A stretch of 64,000 bases of DNA, taken from NCBI GenBank assembly GCA_025936755.1, contig JAICSS010000007.1, forward strand, positions 1 to 64,000. The letters run 5' to 3'. Origin of the DNA: Solirubrobacterales bacterium. GTDB taxonomy: Bacteria > Actinomycetota > Thermoleophilia > Solirubrobacterales > 70-9. This document shows, in pieces, positions 14,471 to 49,646 of the stretch. The notes under the pieces were generated by a model. The model did not search any database, was not told the origin of the DNA, and saw only the letters and a program-made list of their open reading frames with translations. The position numbers were made by a program, and so were the translations under genes. The stretch's first letter is position 1; each line of letters begins with the position of its first letter.

Positions 14471-15918
14471 CGACGAAGCCCCCGCAGCCGGCCCGCGTGG
14501 ACGTCGAGAAGCCCCGGCTCGGCGACCAGCAGGGCCCGTGGGGCTCGCGCCGGCGGGGGATGGTCCTGCGCCGCCTGCTCGCCGCCGGCGACTGGCTGGC
14601 GCTGGTGGCGACGCTCTGCGCCGTCACCGCCTCCACCTCGACCACCGACGTCGCGACGCTCTTCTGGGCGACGCTGTTCAGCCCCGCCTGGATCCTCGTC
14701 GTCAAGCTCCACGGCCTCTACGACAACGACCACCGGCGGATCCGCCACAGCACCCTCGACGAGCTGCCCTCGCTGGTCTCGGCCAGCACCCTGGGGACGC
14801 TGCTGCTGGACGGCCTGCTGGCGTTGAGCCCGGTCGGGCCGCTCTCGCCGCAGAGCGCGATCGCCGTCGGCGTCGGCACCCTCGCCGTCAGCTTCGTCCT
14901 GCGGGGTGCGATCCGCTTCCTCTGGCACAGGCTGACCCCGGTCGCGACCGGGGTCGTGGTCGGCCCCTCCGCCGTCGCCGACCTGATCGCCCGCCGCGTC
15001 TCCACCCACCCCGAGGCGCGGCTGGCGCTGGTCGGCTACCTCTCGGCCACCGAGGAGCGGCCGGCGCGGGAGCTGCCGCGGCTGGGCTCGGTCGCAGACA
15101 TCTCCCGCGTCGCCGGCGAACACGCGATCGAGCGGGTGGTCGTGACCGAACTCGAGATGAGCGAGGGAGCGGCCGAGGGGCTGATCGAGGAGTGCAAGGC
15201 GGCGGGGCTGGCGCTCACCTTCCTGCCCCAGCACTACGGCCTGCTCGGGCCGGGGATCGAGCTCAATCGCCTGGCCGAGCTGCCGGTCCTCGACTTCCGC
15301 TTCAGCGACCCGCCGCGCTCGACGGTGGCGATGAAGCGGGCGATGGACGTCGTCGTCTCGGCGGCGATGCTGCTGCTGCTCTCGCCGCTGCTGCTCGCGG
15401 TGGCGCTCTGGATCCTGCTCGACGACGGCCGCCCCGTCTTCTTCCGCCAGCGCCGCGCCGGCAAGGACGGCGCCCCCTTCACGATGCTGAAGTTCCGGAC
15501 GATGGTCACCGACGCCGAGCAGCGGCTGCCGGAGCTGGTCGACCTCGCGACCCTCGACCAGCCCGCCTTCAAGATCCCCGACGACCCGCGGGTGACCCGC
15601 TCGGGCCGCAGCCTGCGCCGCACCAGCGTCGACGAGCTGCCGCAGCTGATCAACGTCCTCCGCGGCGACATGTCCCTGGTCGGGCCGCGGCCGGAGGAGG
15701 AGAGCGTCGTCGCCCTCTACGACGAGCGCCAGCGCAGCCGGCTGGCGATCAAGCCGGGGATCACCGGGCCGATGCAGGTCTACGGCCGCAGCGACCTCAC
15801 CTTCGAGGAGCGGCTGGCGATGGAGCGCGACTACCTCGACAACCTCTCGCTGCTGACCGACCTGGAGATCCTGCTGCGGACGCCGCGGGCGATGGTCCGC
15901 GGCGAGGGCGCCTACTAA
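14467..15918 (+). CDS. Polyprenyl-phosphate sugar-1-phosphate transferase (WbaP/WcaJ type)
   Basis: 483 residues. It transfers a sugar-1-phosphate from a nucleotide sugar to polyprenyl phosphate, the first committed step of lipid-linked glycan synthesis at the inner membrane face. The N-terminal half has four membrane segments and a nucleotide-binding-like domain. The catalytic domain starts about residue 289 (MKRAMDVVVSAAMLLLLSP) and has FRQRRAG, MLKFRTM, RSLRRTSVDELPQLINVL and DMSLVGPRP, all family hallmarks. ATG 14467 is preferred over 14461 because it overlaps the ligase stop (ATGA) and is spaced correctly from GAAGG. The specific sugar is not evident. Confidence 0.93.
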   Translation: MTTKPPQPARVDVEKPRLGDQQGPWGSRRRGMVLRRLLAAGDWLALVATLCAVTASTSTTDVATLFWATLFSPAWILVVKLHGLYDNDHRRIRHSTLDELPSLVSASTLGTLLLDGLLALSPVGPLSPQSAIAVGVGTLAVSFVLRGAIRFLWHRLTPVATGVVVGPSAVADLIARRVSTHPEARLALVGYLSATEERPARELPRLGSVADISRVAGEHAIERVVVTELEMSEGAAEGLIEECKAAGLALTFLPQHYGLLGPGIELNRLAELPVLDFRFSDPPRSTVAMKRAMDVVVSAAMLLLLSPLLLAVALWILLDDGRPVFFRQRRAGKDGAPFTMLKFRTMVTDAEQRLPELVDLATLDQPAFKIPDDPRVTRSGRSLRRTSVDELPQLINVLRGDMSLVGPRPEEESVVALYDERQRSRLAIKPGITGPMQVYGRSDLTFEERLAMERDYLDNLSLLTDLEILLRTPRAMVRGEGAY

Positions 15919-17491: not shown

Positions 17492-18040
17492 TCAGAAGGG
17501 AAGTGCATCGCGGACTTCGGCGAGCTTCGGGGCGGTCTTGTCACGCTCGCTGAGGAGCGGGGCCTCGACCTCCCAGTCGACGCCGACATCGGGGTCGTCC
17601 CAGGCGATCCCCTTCTCGGTGGCGGGGTCGTAGTAGCTGGAGACCTGGTAGGCGACGTCGGCTTCCTCGGAGAGGACGGCGAAGCCGTGGCCGAAGCCGA
17701 CCGGGACGAAGAGCTGGCGGTGGCGGACGTCGTCGAGGCGGTGGGCCTCCCACTGGCCGTAGGTGGGGGAGCCGCGGCGGAGGTCGACGGCGACGTCGAG
17801 GATCTCGCCGCGGGCGCAGCGGACCAGCTTCGCCTGCCCCGGCTCGGTCTGGAAGTGGATCCCGCGCAGCGTCCCCCGGCGCGAGCGCGAGTGGTTGTGC
17901 TGGACGAACTCGGCCTCGACGCCGAGCTGGCGCCAGCCCTCGCGGCTGTAGGACTCGACCATGAAGCCGCGCTCGTCGCCGTGGACGACCGGCTCGACCA
18001 GGACGACTCCGTCGAGCTTGGTGGGGAGCCGCTGCGCCAC
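17492..18040 (-). CDS. rmlC: dTDP-4-dehydrorhamnose 3,5-epimerase
   Basis: 182 residues, cupin-fold epimerase and third step of dTDP-L-rhamnose synthesis. Key residues are in place: RGFMVESY (24-31), QHNHSRSRRGTLRGIHFQ with the catalytic His62, VPVGFGHGF, and Tyr131 in YQVSSYY. GTG 18040 shares one base with the rmlB stop (TAGTG), so the two genes are tightly coupled. It is the last gene of the rml operon, and the antitoxin gene begins 29 bases further downstream. Confidence 0.96.
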   Translation of the reverse strand: MAQRLPTKLDGVVLVEPVVHGDERGFMVESYSREGWRQLGVEAEFVQHNHSRSRRGTLRGIHFQTEPGQAKLVRCARGEILDVAVDLRRGSPTYGQWEAHRLDDVRHRQLFVPVGFGHGFAVLSEEADVAYQVSSYYDPATEKGIAWDDPDVGVDWEVEAPLLSERDKTAPKLAEVRDALPF

Positions 18041-19023
18041 TAGCCGAGGCTCTTCCCGTACTGCTTTTCGTAGTACTCGCGGTACTCGCCGGAGCGGATC
18101 GGGCCCCACCACTCCTCGTTCTCGCGGTACCACTCGACGGTGCGCTCGAGGCCCTCGGCGAAGTGGACCTGCGCCTCCCAGCCCAGCTCCTCCTTCAGCT
18201 TCGCCGAGGAGAGCGAGTAGCGGCGGTCGTGACCGGGGCGGTCGCTGACGTACTCGATCAGCGACTCGTCGGCGCCGACCAGCTCGATCACCCGCTTGAC
18301 GACCTCGACGTTCTCGCACTCGTCGGGCCCGCCGACGTTGTAGGCCTCGCCGGCCCTGCCCTTCGCCAGCACCGTGTGGATGCCGCGGCAGAAGTCCTCG
18401 ACGTAGAGCCAGTTGCGGACCTGGCGGCCGTCGCCGTAGACCGGCAGCGAGTCGCCGTGCAGCGCGTTCAGGACCATCAGCGGGATCAGCTTCTCCGGGT
18501 ACTGGCGCGGGCCGTAGTTGTTGGAGCCGCGGACGATCGAGGCGTCGAGGCCGTAGGTGTGGAAGTGGGCGGAGACGAGCAGGTCCCCGGCCGCCTTCGT
18601 CGCCGAGTAGGGCGAGGAGGGATCCAGCGGCGAGGTCTCGGTGAAGGAGCCGGACTCGATCGAGCCGTAGACCTCGTCGGTGGAGACCTGCAGGTAGCGC
18701 TCGACGCCGAGCTCGCGCGCCGCGTCGAGCAGCGTCCCGGTGCCGACGACGTGGGTGCGGGCGAAGGCTTCCTGGTCGTCGATCGAGCGGTCGACGTGGG
18801 ACTCGGCGGCGAAGTTGACGACCGCGTCGGCGCCCTGCATCGCCTCCCGCACCGCCGCCGGGTCCTCGATCGCGCCCTCGATCAGCTGCGTTCCCTCCGG
18901 CAGGTTCTCGCGCCGGCCGGCGTAGGTGAGCTTGTCGAGGACGACGACGTCGTGCTCGCCCCCCACCAGCCGCACGTAGGTGGAGCCGATGAAACCCGCC
19001 GCTCCGGTGACCAAAAGCCTCAT
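18040..19023 (-). CDS. rmlB: dTDP-glucose 4,6-dehydratase
   Basis: 327 residues, extended short-chain dehydrogenase fold and second step of dTDP-rhamnose synthesis. It has the NAD-binding GAAGFIGS (7-14), the catalytic STDEVYG (114-120, with the Asp-Glu pair of the dehydratase), Tyr139 and Lys143 (YxxxK), RGSNNYGPRQ and NWLYVEDFC. The ATG overlaps the rmlD stop by ATGA (19020-19023). Confidence 0.97.
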   Translation of the reverse strand: MRLLVTGAAGFIGSTYVRLVGGEHDVVVLDKLTYAGRRENLPEGTQLIEGAIEDPAAVREAMQGADAVVNFAAESHVDRSIDDQEAFARTHVVGTGTLLDAARELGVERYLQVSTDEVYGSIESGSFTETSPLDPSSPYSATKAAGDLLVSAHFHTYGLDASIVRGSNNYGPRQYPEKLIPLMVLNALHGDSLPVYGDGRQVRNWLYVEDFCRGIHTVLAKGRAGEAYNVGGPDECENVEVVKRVIELVGADESLIEYVSDRPGHDRRYSLSSAKLKEELGWEAQVHFAEGLERTVEWYRENEEWWGPIRSGEYREYYEKQYGKSLG

Positions 19024-19868
19024 TCCGAACCCTCCGCTTGTCGTTGGCCGAGATAGCCTGCCAGCCCGTCCTGCCAGCTGGGCAGCCGGATCGCGTGCTC
19101 GCGCTGGCTGGCCAGGGCCGAGAAGGCCGGCCGCGGCGCCGCGGCGCCGAATTCCTCGCTGGTGATCGAGAGCACCCTGCACTCGACCTGCGCCTGCTCG
19201 AAGATCTCGCGGGCGAACTCGTACCAGGAGCACTGGCCCGCGGCCGCCATGTGGTGGATGCCGTACTCGATCCCCTCGATCAGGCGGACGATCCCGTAGG
19301 CGAGGTGCCAGGTGTAGGTCGGCGAGCCGACCTGGTCGCGGACCACGGCGACCTCGCTGCGGTCCTCGGCGAGCTGGAGCATCGTGCCGACGAAGTTGCG
19401 GCCGCCGACGCCGAAGAGGCCGGCGGAGCGGACGATGAAGTGGCGCTTGTTGGCGGCGGCGACCGCCTCCTCCCCGGCCAGCTTGGTGCGGCCGTAGGCC
19501 GAGAGCGGGGCCGGCTGGTCGCTCTCGACGTAGGGCGCGCCCTTGGCGCCGTCGAAGACGTAATCGGTGGAGACGTGGACGATCCGCGCTTCCACCTCGG
19601 CGGCCGCGGCGGCGACGTTGCCGGCCCCCCTGCCGTTGATCGCGAAGGCGGCCTCCTCGGCCGTCTCGGCCCCGTCGACGTCGGTCCAGGCGGCGCAGTT
19701 GATGACCACGTCGGGCCGCTCCAGCTCCAGCCGGCGGTGGAGCTGGGCGGGATCGGCGACGTCGAGCTCGACTCGGCCGTAGCCCACGACCTCGTGGCCG
19801 GCGTTGCCGGCCGCGAGCATGACGTCGCGGCCGAGCATGCCGGCGGCTCCGGTGACGAGCAGCTTCAT
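19020..19868 (-). CDS. rmlD: dTDP-4-dehydrorhamnose reductase
   Basis: 282 residues, NAD(P)H-dependent reductase that completes dTDP-L-rhamnose. Motifs: GAAGMLGRDV (7-16), NCAAWTDVDGAE, HVSTDYVFDG (98-107), Tyr125 and Lys129 (SAYGRTKLAGE), and RSAGLFG. It is in operon order rmlA, mannosyltransferase, rmlD, rmlB, rmlC on the minus strand. Confidence 0.96.
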   Translation of the reverse strand: MKLLVTGAAGMLGRDVMLAAGNAGHEVVGYGRVELDVADPAQLHRRLELERPDVVINCAAWTDVDGAETAEEAAFAINGRGAGNVAAAAAEVEARIVHVSTDYVFDGAKGAPYVESDQPAPLSAYGRTKLAGEEAVAAANKRHFIVRSAGLFGVGGRNFVGTMLQLAEDRSEVAVVRDQVGSPTYTWHLAYGIVRLIEGIEYGIHHMAAAGQCSWYEFAREIFEQAQVECRVLSITSEEFGAAAPRPAFSALASQREHAIRLPSWQDGLAGYLGQRQAEGSE

Positions 19869-19893
19869 ACGGTGGCCAGAGTAGTGACGCGGC

Positions 19894-21138
19894 TCAGGCG
19901 ACGAAGGACCAGAGGGCGAACTGGGCGGTGAATATCGCCATCCCCGCCGCGAAGAGGGCGACGACCCGGGTCGTCCACCCGCGCCTCTCCGTCACCGTCG
20001 CCAGCCAGAGGAAGAGCGGAAAGAGGACGGCGATGAAGCGCGAGGCCGACCAGAAGGGGTCGCCTTCGACCTGCGAGACGAAGGTCGGCGCCAGCGAGAG
20101 CAGCACCCAGGTCCCGTAGGCGGCCGGCAGCGTGCGCAGCATCGCGATCCCGCCGAAGACGGCGAAGGCGACGAAGACCAGCTGCATGATGTTGAGGTAG
20201 TCGAGGGTGCCGTGGTAGGAGCCGGTGGCGAGGTGCCCGACCCCGTTCCCCGCTTCCCGGAAGCCGGCCCAGATCCCCGTCAGCGGATCGACGGTGTGGC
20301 GGCCGAACAGCGCCTGGGCGTCGTTCCACGCCATCCAGTTGCCGAGCGTGAAGTGGAGGTAGGCGCTGAAGGCGATCAGGCCGAGCGGCGCCAGCAGCAG
20401 CCAGAGGAAATCCGGCCGCAGGCGATAGCGCGGCCAGCGCCCGTCGTGCAGCTCCCGCTCGCGGTCGGTCCGCGGCCCGTAGAGGTAGAGCATCGCCACC
20501 GGGACGACCAGCAGCAGCCCCGGGACGCGGGTCGCGGAGGCGAGAGCGAGGACGATCCCGGCGACGGCCCAGTGGCCGGTGCGGGCGGCGAGGAAGGCGC
20601 CGACGGCGAGCAGCAGGAACATCGACTCGCTGTAGGGGATGCCGAAGAAGAGCGCGGTCGGGAAGAAGGAGAGCAGCAGCAGCGTCGGCGCCGCGAACCG
20701 CTCCCCGAGCTCGATCGCGGTCAGCCGGTGGAGCAGGGCGAGGGCGCCGAAGAAGCAGGCGAGCGAGACCGCGTAGGCGACGATCAGGATCAGTCCCGGG
20801 CTGGCGCCGAAGCCGCTGAACAGGTGGACGACCCCGGGGTAGAGCGGGAAGAAGGCCGGCCGGTTCTCGACCGGGGGCAGCCCTTCGAAGCTCTGGACGT
20901 AGCCGTCGTAGGCGATCGCCAGGTAGTGCTGGGTGTCCCACTTCGCCATCGGCGAGAAGACGAGGTCGAGGAGGTTGTGCCCCGGCCAGGCGGCGAAGGG
21001 GTGGGAGAGCGAGGCAGATTCGCCGACCACGTTGGGGATGAAGCCGGAGATCGTGACCCAGATGGCGACGCCGAAGACAACCAGGCGGCTGGGCCAGAAC
21101 GCCGCCCAGGCAGCGCGAGCGCTGGAGCGCCAGCCCAC
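19894..21138 (-). CDS. PIG-V-type mannosyltransferase (GT-C membrane protein)
   Basis: 414 residues with about nine membrane segments. The PIG-V family pattern is clear: KWDTQHYLAIAYDGY in the first extracellular loop, AFFPLYP, FFPTALFFGIPYSESMFLLL and LALASATRVPG. These GT-C enzymes use polyprenol-phosphate-mannose on the outer membrane face; the polyprenol-phosphate sugar synthase at 39605-40339 could provide the donor. GTG 21138 shares one base with the rmlA stop (TAGTG), the same geometry as rmlB-rmlC. The longer frame upstream is antisense to nothing useful and is rejected. Acceptor unknown. Confidence 0.88.
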   Translation of the reverse strand: MGWRSSARAAWAAFWPSRLVVFGVAIWVTISGFIPNVVGESASLSHPFAAWPGHNLLDLVFSPMAKWDTQHYLAIAYDGYVQSFEGLPPVENRPAFFPLYPGVVHLFSGFGASPGLILIVAYAVSLACFFGALALLHRLTAIELGERFAAPTLLLLSFFPTALFFGIPYSESMFLLLAVGAFLAARTGHWAVAGIVLALASATRVPGLLLVVPVAMLYLYGPRTDRERELHDGRWPRYRLRPDFLWLLLAPLGLIAFSAYLHFTLGNWMAWNDAQALFGRHTVDPLTGIWAGFREAGNGVGHLATGSYHGTLDYLNIMQLVFVAFAVFGGIAMLRTLPAAYGTWVLLSLAPTFVSQVEGDPFWSASRFIAVLFPLFLWLATVTERRGWTTRVVALFAAGMAIFTAQFALWSFVA

Positions 21139-22217
21139 TAGACGAGTTTGATCTCGGAGCGGTCGCCGACGAGGAGGCGGAGCGTCTTCGGCATCCCCTC
21201 GCTGCGGGTCAGCTTCACTTCCTTGCCCAGCAGGCTCGCCTCCATCCGCGTGCCGAGGTCCTCGACGACGGAGCCGGAGAGGACGATCGAGTTCTCGACT
21301 TCGGAGCGGCGGACGTGGACGTCGTCGCCGATCGAGGTGTAGGGGCCGACGAAGGCGTCCTCGACGACCGCGCCGGCGCCGATCACGGCGGGGCCGCGGA
21401 CGACCGAGCGCTCGAGCCGGGCGCCGGGGCCGAGGACGACGCGGCCCTCTACCTTGGAGTCCTCGTCGACCTCCCCCTCGATCGCGGTCACCAGCTCCTC
21501 GAGCACGAGCCGGTTGGCCTCGAGCATGTCGGCGAGCTGGCCGGTGTCCTTCCACCAGCCGCGGACGACCTCGGAGCGGACGCTGCGGCCGTCGTCGATC
21601 AGCTTCTGGATCGCCTCGGTGATCTCCAGCTCGCCGCGCCAGGAGGGCTCCAGCGAGCGGGCGGCGTCGAAGATCAGGTTGCCGAAGAGGTAGACGCCGA
21701 CCAGCGCGAGGTTCGAGGGCGGGTCTTTCGGCTTCTCGATCAGGCGGACGATGTGGTCCTGGTCGTCGAGCTCGGCGACGCCGTAGGACTGCGGGTCCTC
21801 GACCGGGGTGAGGAGGATCAGCGCGTCGGGGCCATGCTCTTCGAAGCTGCCGACGAGGCCGCGGAGGCCGTCGCGCAGGAGGTTGTCGCCGAGGTACATG
21901 ACGAAGGGCGAGCCGCCGATGAAGTCCTCCGCGGTCAGCACCGCGTGGGCGAGGCCGGCGGGCTCGTCCTGGACGATGTAGGTGATCTCGGCGCCGAAGC
22001 GGGAGCCGTCACCGGCCGCCTCGCGGATCTCGTCCCCGGTCTCGGGGGCGATGATGATCCCGATCTCCTTCACGCCCGCGTCCACGAGCGCCTCGATCCC
22101 GTAGAAGAGCACCGGTTTGTTGGCCACCGGGACGAGCTGCTTGGCCGAGGTGTGGGTGATCGGGCGCAGCCGGGTTCCGGCGCCGCCGGAGAGGATCAGT
22201 CCCTTCAGGGGCTCCAT
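21138..22217 (-). CDS. rmlA: Glucose-1-phosphate thymidylyltransferase, long form
   Basis: 359 residues. It makes dTDP-glucose from glucose-1-phosphate and dTTP, the first step of the rhamnose route. N-terminal nucleotidyltransferase: LILSGGAGTRLRP (7-19), TSAKQLVPVANKP, YLGDNLL and EKPKDPPS. Residues about 245-359 form a left-handed beta-helix-like tail (VVLGPGARLERSVVRGPAVI). This is the actinobacterial and archaeal long form of the enzyme rather than the 290-residue RmlA. It is the first gene of the minus-strand rml operon. Confidence 0.93.
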   Translation of the reverse strand: MEPLKGLILSGGAGTRLRPITHTSAKQLVPVANKPVLFYGIEALVDAGVKEIGIIIAPETGDEIREAAGDGSRFGAEITYIVQDEPAGLAHAVLTAEDFIGGSPFVMYLGDNLLRDGLRGLVGSFEEHGPDALILLTPVEDPQSYGVAELDDQDHIVRLIEKPKDPPSNLALVGVYLFGNLIFDAARSLEPSWRGELEITEAIQKLIDDGRSVRSEVVRGWWKDTGQLADMLEANRLVLEELVTAIEGEVDEDSKVEGRVVLGPGARLERSVVRGPAVIGAGAVVEDAFVGPYTSIGDDVHVRRSEVENSIVLSGSVVEDLGTRMEASLLGKEVKLTRSEGMPKTLRLLVGDRSEIKLV

Positions 22218-22263: not shown

Positions 22264-22482
22264 ATGGTCGCCGCCACCGATCAGCCCCGGGACGAGCTGA
22301 CGGCGCTCCGCGAGCAGCGCGAGGCGCTGCACCGGGAGCTCGTCCGCAAGACCTACCGCATCGGCGAGCTCGAACAGGAGATCGCCGAGGTAGCCCGCAC
22401 CTACGAGGAGAGCCTCAGCTGGAGGCTGACCCGGCCGGTGCGCGGCCTCAAGCCGACCCTGAAGAAGCTCCTCGGCCGCTGA
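22264..22482 (+). CDS. Small coiled-coil protein ending in SWRLTRPVR membrane-tag motif
   Basis: 72 residues. A charged coiled coil (about residues 8-48, heptads rich in Glu/Leu) leads to SLSWRLTRPVRGLKPTLKKLLGR. The SWRLTRPxR motif is seen at the ends or linkers of many bacterial glycosyltransferases and recurs at the C-termini of the proteins at 45799-48459 and 48456-49646. It overlaps the next glycosyltransferase by TGATG, so the pair may work as a split version of one longer enzyme. No catalytic residues. Confidence 0.75.
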   Translation: MVAATDQPRDELTALREQREALHRELVRKTYRIGELEQEIAEVARTYEESLSWRLTRPVRGLKPTLKKLLGR

Positions 22483-26314: not shown

Positions 26315-27172
26315 CTACAACCGCTCGGCGATCTTGGGGGCCTCGCGCTTGAAGACCCAGACGCCGAGGACGCAGGTGAGGACGTAGATCGCGGTGGCGG
26401 GGAGCATCGCCGCCCAGCTACCGGCGGCCTGAAGGGCGGTTTCGGCTTCCGGATCGATGATCCAGTGATGGGCCTGGGCGAAGATCAGGGTCAGGGGATT
26501 GGCGAGGAGTACGTCGCGGAGGAAGCTCGGTTCGATGATGCTGAGGGGATAGATGATCGGCGTGCCGTACATCAGCACGGTGGCGGCAACCGTCCAGATG
26601 ATCGCGACGTCGCGGAAGCGGACGTTCAGCGCCGAAAGAAGGAGCGAGACGGCGCAGGTGAGGACGACGATGAGCAGCAGGATCACCGGCAGCAGCAGCC
26701 AGGTCCACATCGGGGTGATGCCGTAGATGAGGATGAAGGCGAAGACGGCGATCAGGTTGAGGGCAAGGGTGAAGAAGGCGACCATCACCGACGAGAGCGG
26801 GATCACCAGGCGGGGGAACTGGGTCTTGCGGACGATCCCCTCCTGGGCCAGGACCGAGCCGACCGCCGCCCCGGTCCCTTCCTGGAAGAGGCCGAAGACG
26901 ACGAGGTTGAAGAGCAGCAGGACCGGATAGTTGGGCACTTCGAAGCGGATGATCCGCGTGAACACCACCAGCAGGACGCCGAACAGCATCAACGGCCTGA
27001 CCAGCGACCAGATGTAGCCGAAGGCGGTGCCGTGGAAGCTTTTCTTGAATTCCGTGGCCGAGATCAGCCAGAGGAGTTCGAAGAAGCGGCGGCTGCCGCC
27101 GCCGGTGGCGGAGGGGCCGCGGACCTCGCGCAGCTCCACCGGCTGCGCCGGCGCCTGGGCCTCGGCGCTCAC
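26315..27172 (-). CDS. wzm: Polysaccharide ABC exporter, permease
   Basis: 285 residues, ABC-2 permease with six predicted membrane segments (from GYIWSLVRPLMLFGVLLVVF to TAIYVLTCVLGVWVF). Conserved features are FFELLWLISATEFKKSFHGT and FPRLVIPLSSV before the second helix pair, and MYGTPIIYPLS, typical of Wzm/TagG. It works with the adjacent ATPase to move lipid-linked polysaccharide across the inner membrane. GTG 27172 overlaps the wzt stop by GTGA. Confidence 0.93.
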   Translation of the reverse strand: MSAEAQAPAQPVELREVRGPSATGGGSRRFFELLWLISATEFKKSFHGTAFGYIWSLVRPLMLFGVLLVVFTRIIRFEVPNYPVLLLFNLVVFGLFQEGTGAAVGSVLAQEGIVRKTQFPRLVIPLSSVMVAFFTLALNLIAVFAFILIYGITPMWTWLLLPVILLLIVVLTCAVSLLLSALNVRFRDVAIIWTVAATVLMYGTPIIYPLSIIEPSFLRDVLLANPLTLIFAQAHHWIIDPEAETALQAAGSWAAMLPATAIYVLTCVLGVWVFKREAPKIAERL

Positions 27173-28428
27173 CGGGCCTCGCCCTCCTTCAGCTCGAACT
27201 CGACCTCGGTCTCGAAGAAGGCCACCCCGGCCTCGTCTTTGCCGAAGACGACGAAGTCGAGGATGTGGGGGGAGTAGAGGACGATGTCGGAGATGTTGCG
27301 GTTGCGATGGACCCAGCAGCGAACGACGTAGCGGCCGGGGGCGAGGCGGTTTTCGACCCTGCTGCGGATCTGGATCCGCTCGCCGGCGGCGACCCGCTCG
27401 GGCAGGTCCTCCTTGGGGACGCCGAAGCCCATCACCTCGACGCCGTCGGGGTTGACGAAGGTGAAGCCGAAGATCGGGCCCTCGACGTCGCGCTTCGCCT
27501 CCAGCTCGGCGCAGAAGTGGAGCTCCTCGCCCTTCTCGACGTTGGCCGCCCGCCGGCCCGCGCCGTCCTGGAGCCAGGCCTCCCCGACGACGATGTCGGC
27601 GACCTCGCCGAGCGAGTCCTCGCCGCTGCTCGGCGCCGATTCGAAGTTCAGCCGCAGGTACTTGCGGGCGACCTCGCCCGGATCCCCCATCCCCCGCACC
27701 TCGCCGTCGTGGAGGAGCATCGCCCGGTGGCAGTAGTGCTCGACGGCGCCCATGTCGTGGGTGACGAGGATGACCGTGCGCTCGGAGTCGCGCATCTCGT
27801 GGAAGACGTCGGCGCACTTCTGCTGGAAGGCGGCGTCGCCGACCGCCAGCACCTCGTCGATCAGGAGGATCTCGGCGTCGGACTGGATCATCACCGAGAA
27901 GGCGAGCCGGACCAGCATCCCCGAGGAGTAGTTCTTCAGTTTCATGTCGACGAACTCCTCGAGCTCGGCGAACTCGAGGACGGCGCCGAGACGGCTGCGC
28001 GCCTGCCGCCGCTCCAGCCCCATCATCACCCCGTTCAGCTCGACGTTCTCGCGCGCGGTCAGCTCCGGGTTGAAGCCGACCCCGAGCTCGATGAAGGGGG
28101 CCAGCCGGCCGGCCATCCGCACCCGCCCCGCGTCGGCGGCGTAGATGCTGGCGAGGACTTTCAGCAGCGTGCTCTTGCCGGAGCCGTTGCGGCCGACGAT
28201 GCCGAAGAACTCGCCGCGGCGGATCTCGAAGGAGACGTCGCGCAGGGCGTGCAGCTGGCGGTAGTCGGGGCGCGAGAAGGTGGTGATCTGCTCTTTCAGC
28301 GAGCTGATCTTGTTGACCGGGAGGCGGAAGGACTTGGTCACCCCGCGCGCCTCGATCACGACCGGCTCGGCGTCGAAGTCGCGCCCGCGCGGGGTCGCGG
28401 GGCCGTCTTGGGTGGTGTCGACCGCCAT
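27169..28428 (-). CDS. wzt: Polysaccharide ABC exporter, ATPase with Wzt carbohydrate-binding tail
   Basis: 419 residues. ABC ATPase: Walker A GRNGSGKST (79-87), signature NYSSGMLVRLAFS (about 167-179), Walker B ILLIDE (187-192) and His224. Residues about 265-419 match the Wzt C-terminal beta-sandwich (FGFTFVNPDGVEVMGFG), which in known systems recognises the modified end of the O-polysaccharide. This tail means export is probably tied to a chain-terminating modification, consistent with two methyltransferase genes in the cluster. It lies 51 bases downstream of the coiled-coil gene in the same direction, with a GC-rich palindrome between. Confidence 0.94.
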   Translation of the reverse strand: MAVDTTQDGPATPRGRDFDAEPVVIEARGVTKSFRLPVNKISSLKEQITTFSRPDYRQLHALRDVSFEIRRGEFFGIVGRNGSGKSTLLKVLASIYAADAGRVRMAGRLAPFIELGVGFNPELTARENVELNGVMMGLERRQARSRLGAVLEFAELEEFVDMKLKNYSSGMLVRLAFSVMIQSDAEILLIDEVLAVGDAAFQQKCADVFHEMRDSERTVILVTHDMGAVEHYCHRAMLLHDGEVRGMGDPGEVARKYLRLNFESAPSSGEDSLGEVADIVVGEAWLQDGAGRRAANVEKGEELHFCAELEAKRDVEGPIFGFTFVNPDGVEVMGFGVPKEDLPERVAAGERIQIRSRVENRLAPGRYVVRCWVHRNRNISDIVLYSPHILDFVVFGKDEAGVAFFETEVEFELKEGEAR

Positions 28429-40344: not shown

Positions 40345-41460
40345 CTAGGGCCGGGCCCGTCCGCCGGTCATCTTCACGAACGCGTGCCAGGAGGGCTTCG
40401 CCTTGAAGCGGGGCCCTGCGCGGAAGAGGCCGACCGAGTCGCAGAAGTCGCAGAGCAGGGGCGTGTCCTTCCAGGAGAACCAGACCACCTGCTTCAGGTT
40501 CAGCCGCCGCTGGTTGGCGATCAGGTAGCCGTAGGCGCTCTTCAGCTGGCGGACCTGGCCGCGCACCCCCTGCTCGAAGGCGTCGTGCTGGAAGTCGTTC
40601 TGTGAGCCCCATCCCATCTCGGTCACGTAGAAGCCCGGGCGGTCGTGGTTCTCCTTGCTGACTTCGTGGAATTCCTCGACCATGTCTTCGAGTTCGCCGG
40701 TGTCGATCGCGTAGGGGTGGAGGGCGACGCCGTCGAACTTGCTCTTGATCCCGGGCCGGCGGTAGAGCTGTTCGAGGAAGGCGGCCGCCGGCATCCCCCT
40801 CTTGCCGCGCGCGTTGGGCCGCGCGAAGAGGCCGCTGAGAAGGATCCTGGCGCCGGGCTGGACCGACTTGATCGCCCGCTGGCTGATCGTCAGCAGCTTC
40901 GCGTAGTCGCCGACGGAGACCGGGAAGGCGAAGTAGAAGAAGTTGGCCTCGTTCCAGATCTGCCAGGTCCGCACCGGCTTCGCCGCCGTGATCGCCGGTT
41001 CGTAGTCGACCCCTTCGGTTTCGTGTTCGCGCCAGAACTGGCCGCCGGGCCCGTAGCGTTCGACCGCAGCCTTGACGAAGGCGGTCCAGGCGGCGCGCTG
41101 GCGGGCGTTGTGGACCGGCAGCTTGGTCAGCCTGCCGAGCCAGGGCGGGGTGCCGGCGAGGAAGGGGAGGATTTCGAGCCCGCCGCGGGCGGCGACTTCG
41201 ACCGTGGGGTCGATCGAGGACCAGTCGTAGCCGCCCCTGCGGGTCGGCTGCACGGCCGACCAGGCGATCGGCATCCGCAGCGTTTCGATCCCACCCGCCC
41301 GCATGTAGCGGATGTCTTCGTCGGTCAGCGGCGTCTGCGGTGCGACGCCGAAGAAGCCGCGCGGCAGCTGCGGCTGCGGCTTGGCGCTGCCGCCGGCGGT
41401 GAAGACGAGCAGCGCGAGGACGCCGGCCAGCGCGAAGGCGGCGAGGATCCGCAGCTTCAC
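40345..41460 (-). CDS. Secreted clan GH-A glycoside hydrolase-like protein (copy 2)
   Basis: 371 residues with signal peptide ([24 protein letters not shown]). Proposed acid/base Glu171 in WQIWNEANF and nucleophile Glu281 in [17 protein letters not shown] between. C-terminal [14 protein letters not shown] and [13 protein letters not shown]. It is closer to copy 3 than to copy 1 ([18 protein letters not shown]). GTG 41460 overlaps the epimerase stop by GTGA, tying it to nucleotide-sugar and mannose-donor genes in one operon. Substrate unknown. Confidence 0.85.
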
Positions 41461-42530
41461 GCCCTGACCGTCCAGCGCTCGAGGTTCTGCTCGTACATCT
41501 CCTGGAGGATCTCCTCGATCCCGTAGCGCAGCTTCCACTCGGGGTAGTCGGCCTGGAAGGGGGCGAGGTCGGAGATCCACCAGCGGTGGTCGCCGATCCG
41601 CGGCTCCTCCCCCATCTCCCACTGCAGCTCGCGCCCGGCGATCCGCTCGCAGACCTCGATCGCCTCCAGCATCGAGCAGTTGCTGGAGCGGCCGCCGCCG
41701 ATGTTGTAGACGGCGGCGGGGCGCGGCGCCTTGCGGAAGGCGTCGAAGGCGGCGATCAGGTCGGCGCTGTGGATGTTGTCGCGGACCTGCTTGCCCTCGT
41801 AGCCGAAGACGGTGTAGGGCGTGCCGGTGGCGACGCACTTCATCAGGTAGGCGAGGAAGCCGTGCAGCTTGGCGCCGGCGTGCTGGGGGCCGGTCAGGCA
41901 GCCGCCGCGGAAGGCGACGGTCGGCATCCCGAAATAGCGCCCGTACTCCTGCACCAGGAGGTCGGCCGCGGCCTTGGAGACCCCGAACAGCGAGTGGGTC
42001 GAGTGGTCGATCGACATGCTCGTGTCGATCCCCTTGAAGTAGGGGTGGTCCTCCGGCAGCTCCAGCCGCTTCTCCAGGCTCTGCAGCGGCAACCGGTTCG
42101 GCGTGTCGCCGTAGACCTTGTTGGTCGAGCAGTGGACGAAGGGGGCGTCGGGGCAGTGGGCGCGCGCCGCCTCCAGCAGGTTGAGGGTGCCGTTGGCGTT
42201 GACGCCGAAGTCGGTCTGGGGCTCGCTCGCGGCCCAGTCGTGCGAGGGCTGGGCGGCGGTGTGGACGACCAGCTCGATCCGGCCGGCGCGCTCGCGGAAG
42301 ATCCGGTCGACCGCCTCGGCGTCGCGGATGTCGGCGTTCTCCCAGCGGAACTCGGCGGGGTGGGCCTCGATCAGCCGCCGGGTGACGTGCGAGGTCGAGG
42401 ATTCGGGGCCGAAGAAGCGGGCCCGCATGTCGTTCTCGATCCCGACCACGTCGAAGCCCTCGCGGACGAAGTGCTCGACCGCCTCGGACCCGATCAGGCC
42501 ACCTGCACCCGTGATGATCGCCACCGGCAT
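41457..42530 (-). CDS. NAD-dependent epimerase, CDP-paratose 2-epimerase-like
   Basis: 357 residues, extended SDR fold. NAD-binding [12 protein letters not shown] (6-17), [25 protein letters not shown] and [11 protein letters not shown] resemble CDP-paratose/tyvelose 2-epimerase relatives. The usual catalytic YxxxK is here FGVSK (in [14 protein letters not shown]), so Tyr is Phe. ATG 42530 is preferred to 42539 because AAAGGG is better spaced. It probably makes an unusual nucleotide sugar for the locus; substrate inferred only by family. Confidence 0.85.
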
Positions 42531-42549
42531 ACGCGTCATTCCCTTTCGT

Positions 42550-43626
42550 TCACTGGGGTTCGATTTGGAGGGCGTCGGCGATCCGCGCCTCGTCGGCGGC
42601 GATCCACTGGTGGATGTCCGCCAGCACCTGCTCGGCGCTGCGCCGGGGTCGCCATGCGTCGAGACCGAAGAGCCTCGCGCAATCGGAAAGGTACACGGGC
42701 ACGTCCCCGGAACGGGTCTCCGGCACGGCTGCAATCGGCACTTCGTTGCCGGTCAGCCGCCGGCAGATCGCCGTCGTCTCCAGCAGCGAGAGGCTGCGCT
42801 CGCGGCCGCCGCCGACGTTCACCGTGCGCCCGTCCCAGGCCGCCTGGTCCATCAGCTGCAGCTCGACCAGGTCGACCAGGTCCTCGACGTGGAGGAGATC
42901 CCGCACCTGCTTGCCATGCCCCCCGAACCCGATGTAGCCGAGGGGGTTGCGGAAGTGGTGGGCGAGCATCCAGTGGGTGAAGACCCCCTGGTCGACCTTG
43001 CCCATCTGCCAGGGGCCGGCGATCACCCCGCAGCGGTCGATCGCCGCGGGGAGGCCGAAGGCCGCCCGGTACTCCTCGATCAGCAGCTCGGCCGCGAGCT
43101 TCGTCGTCCCGTAGAGGGTGCGGGCGCCCGCCAGCGGGAACTCCTCCGAGATCCCGGCCGGGGAGACGCCGGGCACCTCCTGCTCGGCGGCGATCTCGAA
43201 CCGGGTCTCCCCCTCCTCCAGGTTCAGGCCCACCTGCGGCGCCACCGGGTAGACCCGGCTGGTCGAGAGGAAGAGGAAGAAGGCGCCGTCGCGGCGGGCC
43301 AGCTCGAGGCAGTTGTAGGCGCCGGTGAGGTTGGTGTGGAGGAGGTAGGAGGTGTCGCCGTCGACGCCGCTCATCGCCGAGGGCTCGGCCGAGCACTCGG
43401 CCAGCGCCGTGATCGGCGGCAGCGCCGCCAGGTCCCCGGGCTCGCGGACGTCGCCGCGGCGGAACTCGACCCCCGCCTGCTCCAGCCGCGGCAGGTTCAG
43501 CTCCGAGCCCTTGCGGTAGAGGTTGTCGAGCGCGATCACCTCCCAGTCCGGGTGCCGGGAGGCGAGGGAGACCGCGAGGTTGGAGCCGACGAAGCCGGCG
43601 CCGCCGGTGATCAGCAGCCGCTGCAA
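42550..43626 (-). CDS. NAD-dependent epimerase/dehydratase, second CDP-paratose 2-epimerase-like protein
   Basis: 358 residues from TTG 43626: [19 protein letters not shown] at the N-terminus, STSRVYP, intact [11 protein letters not shown] (Tyr and Lys of YxxxK), [19 protein letters not shown] and [14 protein letters not shown]. It differs clearly from the downstream epimerase, so the pair may act in sequence or as a heteromer. TTG 43626 is favoured by TAGCTT eight bases before it; a GTG at 43644 would add six residues. It is divergent from the phosphopantetheinyl transferase gene. Confidence 0.85.
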
Positions 43627-45798: not shown

Positions 45799-48459
45799 AT
45801 GGGCTCCCCCCGTTCCGATCACGAGATAACCAGCCTGCGCACCGCCCCCGGCGAGCTTTCCTTCGATGCGCGCGTCGGCGAGCGGACGACGAAGGTCTGG
45901 ATGCGGACCGATTCGCCGCTGACCCCCACCGCCGACGCGGCGCTGGCGGCGGCGGCGATGCCGGCGATGGCCCACGGCGGGACCTTGCGGATGAGCGACC
46001 CGGTCAGCCCGCGAATGCTGCGCGGCCAGCGCGAGTTCCAGGCGATCCAGCGAAGCTGGTCGCTCGACTGGCCGTTCACCGAGCCCCTGCACGAGGTCGA
46101 GGTGAGCGCTCCCGTCCGCGAGGTGAGGGAGGTGGCCCCGAAGGGAAGGGTGGCGGCCTTCTTCAGCGGCGGCGTCGACTCCTGGGGGACGGTCCTCGAC
46201 AACCCCGACCTCACCGACCTGATCTTCGTCCGCGGCTTCGACCTCGCCCATGAGGGACCGCATGCCCAACTGGCGGAAGAGGTCGAAGTCCGGTTGCGGG
46301 AGGCCGCCGATGGGCTGGGCCTGCCACTTCACGTGGTCACCACCAACCTGCGTCAGTTGAGCGATCCGCACGTCCCCTGGGACGTCTATTACGGCTGCGG
46401 GCTGACCTCCGTCGCCCTCTTCATGGGTCCGGCCTTCGACCGCATCCTGATCGCCAGCGACGGCGACTACGAGGTCCAGGGGGGATGGGGCACCAACTGG
46501 CTGGTCGATCGACTCTGGAGCACCGAGGAGCTGGAGATCGTCGACGACGGTGGATCCCACAGCCGGATGGATCGGCTGCGGCGGGTTGCCGAGGACCCGG
46601 TCGCCTGCCGCAGCCTCAGGGTCTGCTGGGAGAACCCCGACCGCACCTACAACTGCGGTCGCTGCCAAAAGTGCCTGATGACGCTGATCCCCCTGGAGGC
46701 GATCGGCGCCCGCGAGCGGGTCACCTCCTTCCCGCCCGAGCTCGAGCTCGATCCCCAGGGTCTCGCCAAGCTCGTAATCCCCAACACCGTCTCGCTCTCC
46801 TACTGGGAAGACATGCTGGATGCCAGCCGGCAGGCCGAACGGAGCGATCTGGAGGCGGCGCTGGCGCCGGTGGTCGCAAAGGCGAAGGCCGGTCTCGGTC
46901 TCCCCCGGAGCTTCCGGCGGCGGCGCCGGCCGGGCCCGCCGCCCTCGGGAGCGGCCCAGAGCCAGACGCTCTTCCCCGCCGACTCGCCGCCGGCGCTCTT
47001 CGCCACACCGGAGACCGCCGCCGCGGTCGCCGAGGCGACCTCGGTCGCCTTCCTGGTCGGCGGCTACGACGGCTCCGGCAACTTCGGCGACGTGCTGATG
47101 CTCGACGTCGCCCTCGAGCTGCTGGCGCCGCTGGAACCGGGGCTCCTGGTGCTGCCGGTGCTGGAGCGGCGCTACGCCCCGCACCATCCGGGGATCGCCG
47201 AGCAGATGCTGCGCCCGCCGCGGCACCCCGTCTACTTCGACCCCGAGGGCGACGGCGAGGACGGCCTGGTTCCGATCGCCGCCGGCCCGGGCCTCTCCAC
47301 CGCGATCTCCTACTTCTACGGCGGCGGCTACTTCAACGGTCTCTGGGGCGACCGCAAGCTGGCGATGATGCGGGCGGCGGAGGGGCTCCTGGCGGCGGCA
47401 CAGCCGCGCGAAATCCGCCGCGTCGGCTCCGGGCTGCAGGTGGAAGCCGCCTGGCTCGCCGGCCTCTCCGGCGGCGACAGGGCCCAGCTGCGCAGCTTCG
47501 AGCTGCTGGGAACGAGGGACCCGCGCTCGGGAGAGCTCCTTGCCGGCTTCGGCTCGGCGTTCGTCCCCGAAAGCGGCGACGACGCGCTTGGCGCGCTCGG
47601 CCGCCTCCGCCCCGCCGCCCCGGCGGAGGCGGGGCCGTTGCGGGTCAACCTCCACTACACCGAGCACGACTGGGTGACCGGGGAGTCGCAGTCGCTGCTG
47701 GACTTCTACGTCGACCTGCTGACCGCGCTGGGGCAGCGGCTCGGACGGCCGCTCGTCGCCCAGCCCCTGGTCGCCTACCTCGACCCCCGGGTGGACGAGC
47801 AGCCGGCGGCGCGGCGCCTCGCCGAGGCCCTCTCCGCGCGCGCGATCGAGGTGCGGCCGCCGGTCGTCCTGCAGCCCGCCCGCCTCGGCGCCGCCGCGGC
47901 CGAGATCGGAGCCGCATCGCTCACCGTCGCCTGCTCCTACCACGCCGCCCTCACCTCGCTGATGCTGGGCCTGCCGACCCTGACCGTCGCCCACAACCCC
48001 TCCTACGAGCAGAAGGCCGCCGGGCTCCTCGACGCCTTCGGCCAGCCCCCCGAGTTCACGATCCGCCCCGGCGCCGACCCCGGCGCCTGCGCCGAGCTGC
48101 TGGGGAAGACGGTGTTCGACCCCGAGGCGGGGCGCCGGCTCCGGGTCCGGCTGGCGCTGGACGCGCGGCGGCAGCGGCGCCGGCGCGCCGGCGCCGAGGC
48201 AGACCTCTTCGCGCGGATCGCCGGCACCGTCGCCGGGGTCGAGGAAGCGGGGCCGCAATGGGCCGGCGGGGAAGCCGACGCCGACCGCCGGGTGCGGGAG
48301 GCCGAGGGCCGCGTCCGCGCAACCCAGGAGCACGCCGCCCATGCCGAGGCCCACGCCGCGAACCTGGAAGCCCGGATCGCGGAGCTGACCCGGTCCACCT
48401 CCTGGCGCCTGACCCGGCCGCTGCGACGGCTGACCGAGAGGGCGCGGCGGTACCGGTGA
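45799..48459 (+). CDS. Fusion: QueC-like PP-loop ATPase and polysaccharide pyruvyl transferase
   Basis: 886 residues. Part 1 (1-380): a conserved N-terminal region (GELSFDARVGE, about residues 20-110), then the PP-loop FFSGGVDSWG (Ser123-Ser128) and a four-cysteine site Cys276, Cys286, Cys289, Cys292 (YNCGRCQKC), the layout of the zinc site of QueC. Part 2 (about 410-770): polysaccharide pyruvyl transferase fold with GGYDGSGNFGDVLMLDVALE, FYGGGYFNGLWGD, LHYTEHDW and VACSYHAALTSLMLGLPTL. Part 3: coiled coil and STSWRLTRPLRRL. It likely activates a substrate with ATP and adds ketal pyruvate or another group to a glycan; the PP-loop substrate is unknown. GTGA overlap with the next gene. Confidence 0.85.
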   Translation: MGSPRSDHEITSLRTAPGELSFDARVGERTTKVWMRTDSPLTPTADAALAAAAMPAMAHGGTLRMSDPVSPRMLRGQREFQAIQRSWSLDWPFTEPLHEVEVSAPVREVREVAPKGRVAAFFSGGVDSWGTVLDNPDLTDLIFVRGFDLAHEGPHAQLAEEVEVRLREAADGLGLPLHVVTTNLRQLSDPHVPWDVYYGCGLTSVALFMGPAFDRILIASDGDYEVQGGWGTNWLVDRLWSTEELEIVDDGGSHSRMDRLRRVAEDPVACRSLRVCWENPDRTYNCGRCQKCLMTLIPLEAIGARERVTSFPPELELDPQGLAKLVIPNTVSLSYWEDMLDASRQAERSDLEAALAPVVAKAKAGLGLPRSFRRRRRPGPPPSGAAQSQTLFPADSPPALFATPETAAAVAEATSVAFLVGGYDGSGNFGDVLMLDVALELLAPLEPGLLVLPVLERRYAPHHPGIAEQMLRPPRHPVYFDPEGDGEDGLVPIAAGPGLSTAISYFYGGGYFNGLWGDRKLAMMRAAEGLLAAAQPREIRRVGSGLQVEAAWLAGLSGGDRAQLRSFELLGTRDPRSGELLAGFGSAFVPESGDDALGALGRLRPAAPAEAGPLRVNLHYTEHDWVTGESQSLLDFYVDLLTALGQRLGRPLVAQPLVAYLDPRVDEQPAARRLAEALSARAIEVRPPVVLQPARLGAAAAEIGAASLTVACSYHAALTSLMLGLPTLTVAHNPSYEQKAAGLLDAFGQPPEFTIRPGADPGACAELLGKTVFDPEAGRRLRVRLALDARRQRRRRAGAEADLFARIAGTVAGVEEAGPQWAGGEADADRRVREAEGRVRATQEHAAHAEAHAANLEARIAELTRSTSWRLTRPLRRLTERARRYR

Positions 48460-49646
48460 GCGCCGAGCCGGCCAGCGCCGCGACGGAGCTCCGCGCGGAG
48501 GCGGGCGAGCTCTCCTTCCTCGCCCGCGCCGGCGAGCGCGAGCAGCGGCTCTGGTTCCGCTGCCGGAGCGCAACCGCACCGCCCGCCGAGCCGGCCCTGG
48601 CGACGCTGCTGATGCCGGCGATGACTCGCGGCGGCAGCCTCGCCGTCGAGGTCCCGATCAGCGCCCGCCTGCTGCGAAACCAGGCCGAGTTCCAGTCGGT
48701 CCAGCGCGCCTGGTCGTCGCGGTGGCCGTTCGGGCAACCGCCGCTGCGCGAGGTCGAGGTCAGAGCCCCCTCGCGGCTGGCGCCGGGGCCGGGCGAGCCC
48801 GGCCGCGTCGCGGCCTTCTTCAGCGGCGGCGTCGACTCCTGGGCCGCCGTCCTCGCCAACCCCGACGTCACCGACCTCGTCTTCGCCCGCGGCCTCGACC
48901 TGATCCCGGGCGCGCCGCAGCACGCGAAGCTCGCCGACGAGGTCGAGGCGCGGCTGCGGGAGGCGGCCGGGGGGCTGGGGCTGCCGCTGCACGTCGTCGA
49001 CACCAACGTCCGCGCCTTCTCCGACCCGCTGGTGCGCTGGGAGACCTACGCCCCCTCGGTCCTCGCGGCGATCGCCCTCCTCCTCGCACCGCTCTTCGAA
49101 CGGGCCCTGATCGCCACCGACCTCGAGCACCGGCGCCAGATCCCGCTCGGCGCCGCCCGGCTCGTCGACCACCTCTGGAGCACCGAGGGGCTGGAGGTCG
49201 CCGACTGGGGCGGTCGCTTCAACCGGACCGAACGGCTGGAAGCGATCGTCGACCACCCGCTGGTGCAGCGCACCCTGCGGGTCTGCTGGCAGAACCCCGG
49301 CGGCGCCTACAACTGCGGCCGCTGCGGCAAGTGCCTGCTGACGATGATCGCCCTGGAGGCGATCGGCGCCCGCCGGAGGGTCCGCACCTTCCCGGCCGAG
49401 CTGGACCTCGGCCCCCTGCGGGACTACGCGCTCTCGACGCCGCTGCAGGTCGCCTTCTGGGAGGAGCTGCTGGAGACGACGCGTCGCACCGGGCGGCGCG
49501 ATCTGGAGGAGCCGGTGGCGGCGGTGGTCGCGACGGGCCGCCGCGCGGTCGGCGGACCGAGGCACGAGCTGGCGCAGGTGCTCGGCTCCAGCTCCTGGCG
49601 GCTGACGGCGCCGCTGCGCCGCCTCGCCCGGCTGCGCCGGCGCTAG
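48456..49646 (+). CDS. Stand-alone QueC-like PP-loop protein, paralogue of the preceding domain
   Basis: 396 residues from GTG 48456. It aligns end to end with part 1 of the upstream fusion: GELSFLARAGEREQRLWFR, FFSGGVDSWAAVL, LWSTEGLEVADWGG, LRVCWQNPGGAYNCGRCGKC (same four-cysteine spacing) and LTMIALEAIGARRR. It ends SSSWRLTAPLRRLARLRRR, the same tag as the fusion. Its translation is coupled to the fusion by GTGA. The pair may form a heteromer, or each may treat a different sugar. Four bases overlap the convergent gene at the shared CTAG. Confidence 0.85.
   Translation: MSAEPASAATELRAEAGELSFLARAGEREQRLWFRCRSATAPPAEPALATLLMPAMTRGGSLAVEVPISARLLRNQAEFQSVQRAWSSRWPFGQPPLREVEVRAPSRLAPGPGEPGRVAAFFSGGVDSWAAVLANPDVTDLVFARGLDLIPGAPQHAKLADEVEARLREAAGGLGLPLHVVDTNVRAFSDPLVRWETYAPSVLAAIALLLAPLFERALIATDLEHRRQIPLGAARLVDHLWSTEGLEVADWGGRFNRTERLEAIVDHPLVQRTLRVCWQNPGGAYNCGRCGKCLLTMIALEAIGARRRVRTFPAELDLGPLRDYALSTPLQVAFWEELLETTRRTGRRDLEEPVAAVVATGRRAVGGPRHELAQVLGSSSWRLTAPLRRLARLRRR

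Follow-up and report, generated by a model that had tools for sequence, protein, structure and literature searches.

What does a PP-loop (pyrophosphate-binding loop) protein do when it is joined to a pyruvyltransferase? The question is raised by two adjacent genes in a 64,000-nucleotide stretch of a Solirubrobacterales genome (contig JAICSS010000007.1; hereafter the window). Their products, P1 and P2, share a core of about 370 residues, which in P1 is followed by a domain of the polysaccharide-pyruvyltransferase type (Table 1). We found that this core represents a real, conserved, widespread and unnamed PP-loop family, whose function can be predicted only in outline.

A conserved PP-loop family with tandem members

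The start of P2 shares 4 nt (GTGA) with the stop of P1, and pairwise comparison of their cores gave 53% identity across 362 amino acids (E 5e-117). Both proteins contain FFSGGVDSW and C-x9-CGRCxKC. The initial annotation of the locus, which had described two translation-coupled proteins with a common core, a PP-loop and a four-cysteine site, thus proved accurate to the base. It had also singled out a SWRLT(R/A)PLRRL tag, which is indeed C-terminal in both proteins but is generic rather than specific to them, as it also ends a frame at window position 22417 and L024, a family member from a viral contig. The frame at 22417 is short, ends in SWRLTRPVRGL and lies between nucleotidyltransferase and glycosyltransferase genes, just upstream of the latter. 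A literature search on the tag gave nothing relevant. A third, more distant copy of the core (38% identity) stands alone in the same genome (G000:C6:108518).

The PP-loop core of P1 and P2 matched nothing in Pfam, NCBIfam or PADLOC. An SGGxDS loop in a Rossmann-like core, the hallmark of the PP-loop (N-type) ATP pyrophosphatase superfamily, is present in both proteins, and profile comparison and structure support the earlier placement of the core in a QueC-like PP-loop superfamily. Within the QueC/QatC structural group, the two proteins represent a family of PP-loop ATP pyrophosphatases that has not been described. A scan of one genome per species yielded 155 relatives among 192 candidate places; 80 of these were kept, while the locus counts below refer to 92 loci and the alignment to 98 rows. 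According to the record titles, the relatives come from Actinomycetota, Chloroflexi, Acidobacteria, Planctomycetes, Verrucomicrobia, Omnitrophota, Proteobacteria, Desulfobacterales and others, about a dozen phyla. Since relatives with the same core occur in many phyla, the P1/P2 core is not a product of chance. Within the class, 8 of 199 genomes matched at the threshold, two of the eight matches being MnmA; the candidates L009 and L010 were rejected as family members because they are MnmA. Plasmid sequences contributed members from Azospirillum, Gemmobacter, Gloeothece and Nostoc, and viral-contig collections contributed eight. On one contig from a viral collection (L022:4977-6910), a pyruvyltransferase homologue comes immediately after a family member; the two may be a surface-modification pair carried by a phage, or the DNA may be mis-binned from a host.

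G125, N286, C287, C290, K292 and C293 are invariant in the alignment, and D127, G146, D148, W195, R257, K260, V276, C277, G288 and T296 are nearly so. The PP-loop and the cysteines, on whose conservation in relatives the initial reading depended, are both conserved, part of this conservation being built in, because the scan probes were those same motifs (VAAFFSGGV-like and NCGRCxKC-like). Nevertheless, members whose detection did not involve these probes (L004, L006-L008, L012) also keep the PP-loop and cysteines, and the members from whole-genome protein search or tandem copies have the same Cys sites, with a shorter spacing before CGxC in L008. Several distant members weakly matched the Zn-site region of PF19932 (DUF6395), a domain that possibly covers a portion of a sister family of PP-loop proteins; a literature search on DUF6395 gave nothing relevant.

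Tandem arrangements recur, with at least two cores within 2.5 kb in 16 of the 92 loci. P1 and P2 both look intact in their motif set. In a small tree, P1, P2 and the two copies of L032 group with full support, with limited resolution among them. Given that grouping, and an identity of 76% between the L032 copies as against 53% between P1 and P2, the cores may have been doubled on more than one occasion. The two fused cores of L032 (L032:1-1965) share long near-identical stretches, which suggests a recent duplication, gene conversion or an assembly effect.

Relation to QatC, QueC and Cap9

The AlphaFold2 model of P2 was confident, with a mean predicted local distance difference test score (pLDDT) of 91.7 and a predicted template modelling score of 0.89. 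VIA-align, a second look at Foldseek's own candidates, ranked QatC first (Z 15.5, root-mean-square deviation 4.8 A, 289 aligned residues covering 3-360 and including the N-terminal extension), QueC second (Z 12.4, residues 115-307) and Cap9 third (Z 11.9), ahead of further adenylating PP-loop enzymes, which scored Z 8-10. Plain Foldseek of the model against the PDB gave no match below 0.001, a phmmer search of the PDB sequences with P2 gave no match at all, and the family profile A5 gave only insignificant PP-loop matches. In profile-profile comparison, the family aligned with QatC at 93.4% (E 2.5e-7, 228 columns), with the SGGxDS, HP and Cys motifs in register, and with QueC at 54.8% over the PP-loop only, while QatC and QueC aligned with each other at 98.2%.

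As the structure Z scores and the profile comparison agree, the family is nearer to QatC than to QueC, a nearness of fold and not of function. The initial proposal of QueC as the nearest known relative was therefore not upheld: the fold is of the QueC type, but the closest match is QatC, over almost the whole chain. Neither curated model recognises P1 or P2. The NCBIfam/PADLOC QatC model did not match them, and NF041925 was matched by none of the 98 members at 0.001. A profile built from five QatC sequences reached L060 (1.8e-5) and L051 (6e-5). The genome of the window also encodes a separate QatC homologue (G000:C26:32075-33073; L116, L001), which scores 212 bits against the NCBIfam QatC cut-off of 280; the QueC-like match at this place was rejected as a QueC on this account.

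QueC and Cap9 read the base by a Tyr/Asp pair, and QatC has T278/T280 instead (PMC13279940). In the family, the loop at the deazaguanine-reading position reads GSHPxLDPLWS and the Tyr/Asp contacts are absent; the T278/T280 substrate-site region of QatC aligns to the same loop in the profile alignment. The QueC signatures YxQxHxxE, VPxRN and YPDC (PMC13329287) are likewise absent from P1, P2 and the A5 consensus. The QueC family PF06508 matched neither P1 nor P2 at E 0.1; among the 98 relatives it matched only three, at E<=0.001.

The host genomes point the same way. Canonical QueC (>190 bits) is absent from 13 of 24 of them, and QueC, QueD, QueE and Tgt were not found by any search made in Parafrankia (G200) and Timonella (G205). 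Searches of the genome of the window found Tgt but neither QueC nor QueE, so queuine may be salvaged in this organism. A QueD-like gene of the 6-pyruvoyltetrahydropterin synthase type lies elsewhere in this genome (G000:C34:14846-15226; L136), among dehydrogenase-, glycosyltransferase- and riboflavin-type genes. The initial annotation had noted that other queuosine genes are missing around the locus; queC, queD and queE were indeed not seen there, and no neighbourhood of a family member contained a canonical QueC or QueD homologue (QueD by a single query). Glycan genes, above all pyruvyltransferase genes, stand beside the family instead. The QueD and QueE models miss real cases, such as Pseudomonas genomes with strong QueC but no QueD match, so that the argument from absence rests mainly on QueC and Tgt. 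Given the absent deazaguanine-reading motif and the several hosts without QueC, QueE or Tgt, the family does not consist of queuosine enzymes.

Pairing with pyruvyltransferases and gene surroundings

The fusion of P1, in frame, to a complete pyruvyltransferase-like domain, as initially proposed, was confirmed by PF04230, which matched residues 564-733 above its cut-off (E 9.2e-8, 32.8 bits versus 25.3), and by a model of residues 413-816 as a complete glycosyltransferase-B (GT-B) fold. In alignment A9, R573, H715 and K739 of P1 align with R148, H308 and K328 in the phosphoenolpyruvate (PEP) site of CsaB (residues from PMC10435577). Across the profile of family-linked transferases, the counterparts of H308 and K328 are invariant and that of R148 is near-invariant. 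This profile matched yeast Pvg1p (5ax7) at 1e-47 and Klebsiella WbbZ at 1e-19. The 50 matches listed for the P1 model are other GT-B enzymes and do not include Pvg1p, which does not speak against the relationship. The only PF04230 gene in the genome of the window is the one inside P1.

Of the 92 loci, 24 have a pyruvyltransferase homologue (detected with its own profile) on the same strand no more than 700 nt from the core, and 33 have one no more than 4 kb away. The 24 host genomes contain 35 PF04230 matches in about 116 Mb (about 0.30 per Mb), from which about 0.05 loci with a pyruvyltransferase within 700 nt would be expected by chance against the 24 observed, an expectation that glycan-gene clustering raises. 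Adjacency itself is favoured, since the counts drop from 24 (<700 nt) to 9 (700-4,000 nt). Besides P1, there are six locus-level fusions, in both domain orders: the core precedes the transferase in Solirubrobacterales (the window, L032, L033) and Planctomycetes (L081, L094, L109), and follows it in a gammaproteobacterium (L096). The fusion gene of L033 (L033:9731-12634), as read from the sequence, lies in an apparent housekeeping region and not in a glycan cluster. Across many phyla, this link between the family and pyruvyltransferases points to an undescribed step in cell-surface decoration. Literature searches on QueC or PP-loop proteins with pyruvyltransferase or exopolysaccharide gave nothing relevant.

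Other neighbours fit into the same picture of glycans and ligases. Glycosyltransferases recur (11 of 84 near neighbours match PF00535), as do RimK-type ATP-grasps, Mur ligases, carbamoyltransferases and AsnB-like proteins, most of the latter without the glutaminase Cys (cluster 6, nine genes in eight loci). In L050, L051, L052 and L060, core, AsnB-like gene and transferase form a compact three-gene run. The AsnB-like neighbours in these four loci and in L081, L094 and L109 have about 600 residues and an LSGGxDSR motif and lack the N-terminal glutaminase cysteine; they have the appearance of another carboxylate-activating enzyme, likewise uncharacterised, that shares the gene runs of the family. 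Glutaminase-less ligases resembling asparagine synthetase are of the beta-lactam synthetase type. In the deltaproteobacterial loci L103, L104, L105 and L108, a RimK-type ATP-grasp gene precedes the core, and in L103 and L105 a protein of about 620 amino acids, with a weak GNAT match in L103, also precedes it. In the window, a surface-glycan region that also includes glycosyltransferase genes lies upstream of P1.

Table 1. Coordinates of P1, P2 and the upstream glycan genes in the window (ORFs, open reading frames)
Feature	Position	Strand	Basis or remark
P1, QatC/QueC-like PP-loop core + polysaccharide-pyruvyltransferase-type domain + C-terminal helical tail	45799..48459	+	ATG start, 886 aa
P1 PP-loop core with N-terminal extension, residues 1-370	45799..46908	+	identity to P2; model pLDDT mostly >90
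P1 SGGVDS pyrophosphate-binding loop, residues 123-128	46165..46182	+	sequence; conserved in family alignment A5
P1 four-Cys site C276-x9-C286-GR-C289-QK-C292, presumed zinc site as in QueC/QatC	46624..46674	+	sequence; aligns with QatC/QueC Cys site
P1 pyruvyltransferase-type GT-B domain, residues 413-816	47035..48246	+	PF04230, GT-B model, alignment A9, profile match to Pvg1p 5ax7
P1 SWRLTRPLRRL tag	48400..48432	+	sequence
P2, second PP-loop core	48456..49646	+	GTG start, 396 aa
P2 SGGVDS loop, residues 123-128	48822..48839	+	sequence
P2 four-Cys site C277/C287/C290/C293	49284..49334	+	sequence
P2 SWRLTAPLRRL tag	49593..49625	+	sequence
Surface-glycan region upstream of P1	14461..43626	.	Pfam for 14461, 27169, 41457, 42550; rest read from ORFs
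Bacterial sugar transferase	14461-15918		Pfam
Rhamnose-type sugar genes + nucleotidyltransferase	17492-22217		read from ORFs
Wzm/Wzt-type ABC exporter	26315-28428		Pfam for 27169, rest from ORFs
Two NAD-dependent sugar epimerase/dehydratases	41457-43626		Pfam

Predicted function and competing explanations

By the known chemistry of PP-loop enzymes, proteins with SGGxDS use bound ATP to adenylate the oxygen of a carboxyl or carbonyl group, after which nitrogen or sulfur attacks. The carboxylate-activating neighbours (AsnB-like, RimK, Mur) and the supply of carboxylates favour a ligase or amidotransferase, and we predict, with confidence evenly divided for and against, that the P1/P2 family consists of ATP-dependent carboxylate-activating enzymes of this kind in surface-glycan tailoring. 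The initial annotation had already pointed in this direction. With ATP bound at the SGGVDS loop, the enzyme would adenylate a carboxylate of a glycan or of its precursor and release pyrophosphate; ammonia or an amine would then attack the adenylate to give an amide, which a second round might convert to a nitrile, as in QueC. The Cys4 site would hold a structural zinc. The ketal-pyruvyltransferase homologue fused in P1 would use PEP, both activities tailoring the same surface glycan. The carboxylate could come from a pyruvate ketal or from uronic acids, and that of the pyruvate ketal is one obvious candidate substrate. A more specific two-enzyme pathway, in which the pyruvyltransferase installs the ketal and the QatC-like enzyme acts on the ketal carboxylate to form an amide, amino-acid amide or nitrile, is a doubtful extension of this scheme; if true, it would define a class of neutral or derivatised pyruvyl sugars, of which we found no literature report on bacterial surfaces, a search on amidated pyruvate ketals giving nothing relevant.

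Several observations weigh against the ligase prediction. The adenine-contacting residues of QatC are not clearly conserved in the family, and neither P1 nor P2 has a glutaminase or known amine source. P1 has SYH where CsaB has RLH, so that R306 is not conserved and the donor could differ from PEP. The PP-loops are altered in the second copies of L055, L063 and L065, and therefore not all members need be enzymes. Orphan members without a glycan gene alongside (the L013 paralog and the L033 fusion) imply that glycan tailoring may not be universal.

The closeness of the fold to QatC, including the N-terminal extension, leads to an alternative that we consider unlikely, namely a protein ligase that would act not on sugar but on the N-terminus of a partner, such as the pyruvyltransferase or some other glycan enzyme, and thereby regulate that partner. 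QatC and Cap9 act with or on partner proteins (PMC13279940), and P1 starts with Met-Gly, like the MGTS/MGGS substrates of their systems, but P2 does not share this start. The Tyr/Asp deazaguanine contacts of QueC and Cap9 are missing from the aligned GSHPxLDPLWS loop, and the lack of QueC, QueE and Tgt in Parafrankia and Timonella, and of QueE in the genome of the window, also speaks against such a ligase. Moreover, the Qat partners KAP NTPase and TatD are not among the commonest Pfam families of the 84 neighbours, where rarer families are unlisted and QatB has no Pfam model.

The tandem copies, some with eroded PP-loops, and the direct fusion to a transferase would also suit a non-catalytic, regulatory ATP-binding subunit that controls the pyruvyltransferase, the tandem and degenerate copies serving as a scaffold. 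This is similarly improbable: P1 and P2 keep the entire motif set, most members keep SGGxDS and the other conserved residues, and most loci have no adjacent pyruvyltransferase. Sulfur transfer as in MnmA, TtuA and LarE, with adenylation and thiolation of a sugar or carboxylate and with the almost invariant cysteines carrying sulfur or a cluster, has a still poorer prospect; these three enzymes reach Z 8-10, clearly below QatC, QueC and Cap9, the four cysteines fall at the zinc-binding positions of QueC and QatC, and sulfur carriers and cysteine desulfurases are not among the commonest neighbours. Finally, an ordinary queuosine-pathway QueC paralogue making 7-cyano-7-deazaguanine (preQ0), for which the common superfamily, SGGVDS and zinc-type Cys spacing might speak, is refuted for practical purposes by the profile, genome and neighbourhood evidence given above.

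The re-use of the QueC fold in phage defence (Cap9, QatC) was shown recently, and a 2026 survey of PF06508 reported no glycan branch (PMC13329287). The P1/P2 family, which the profile of that survey does not cover, is linked to the pyruvylation of surface sugars through both fusions and gene order. If the ligase prediction is true and the family activates glycan carboxylates, it would represent a new class of cell-surface chemistry and a use of the QatC architecture outside immunity; P2, a stand-alone protein of 396 residues with a confident model, offers a simple test protein.

Among known systems, QatC of the qatABCD anti-phage system (PDB 9y01/9y02; PMC13279940) is most alike, with about 400 amino acids, an N-terminal extension, a QueC-type Rossmann core, Cys4, C-terminal helices and an HP dipeptide in the loop replacing the YPDC motif, whereas the P1/P2 family shows only 12-14% identity to it and is partnered with pyruvyltransferase and glycan genes. 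QueC (PDB 3bl5) shares the SGGxDS loop, the C-x8/9-C-xx-C-xx-C site and the core fold, but the family has an extra N-terminal domain and a Cys spacing of x9 instead of x8. Cap9 of type IV CBASS (cyclic oligonucleotide-based antiphage signalling system; PDB 9nto) has the same core fold but is minimal (about 185 amino acids) and keeps the deazaguanine site. The glutaminase-less asparagine-synthetase-like ligases, recurrent neighbours of the family, resemble it in adenylating carboxylates without a glutaminase, but belong to another PP-loop subfamily and lack the Cys4 site. On the transferase side, the C-terminal domain of P1 has the R, H and K of the PEP site in common with the ketal-pyruvyltransferases CsaB, Pvg1p and WbbZ (PF04230; PDB 5ax7, 6x1l), from which it differs in its SYH motif and in being fused behind a PP-loop enzyme.

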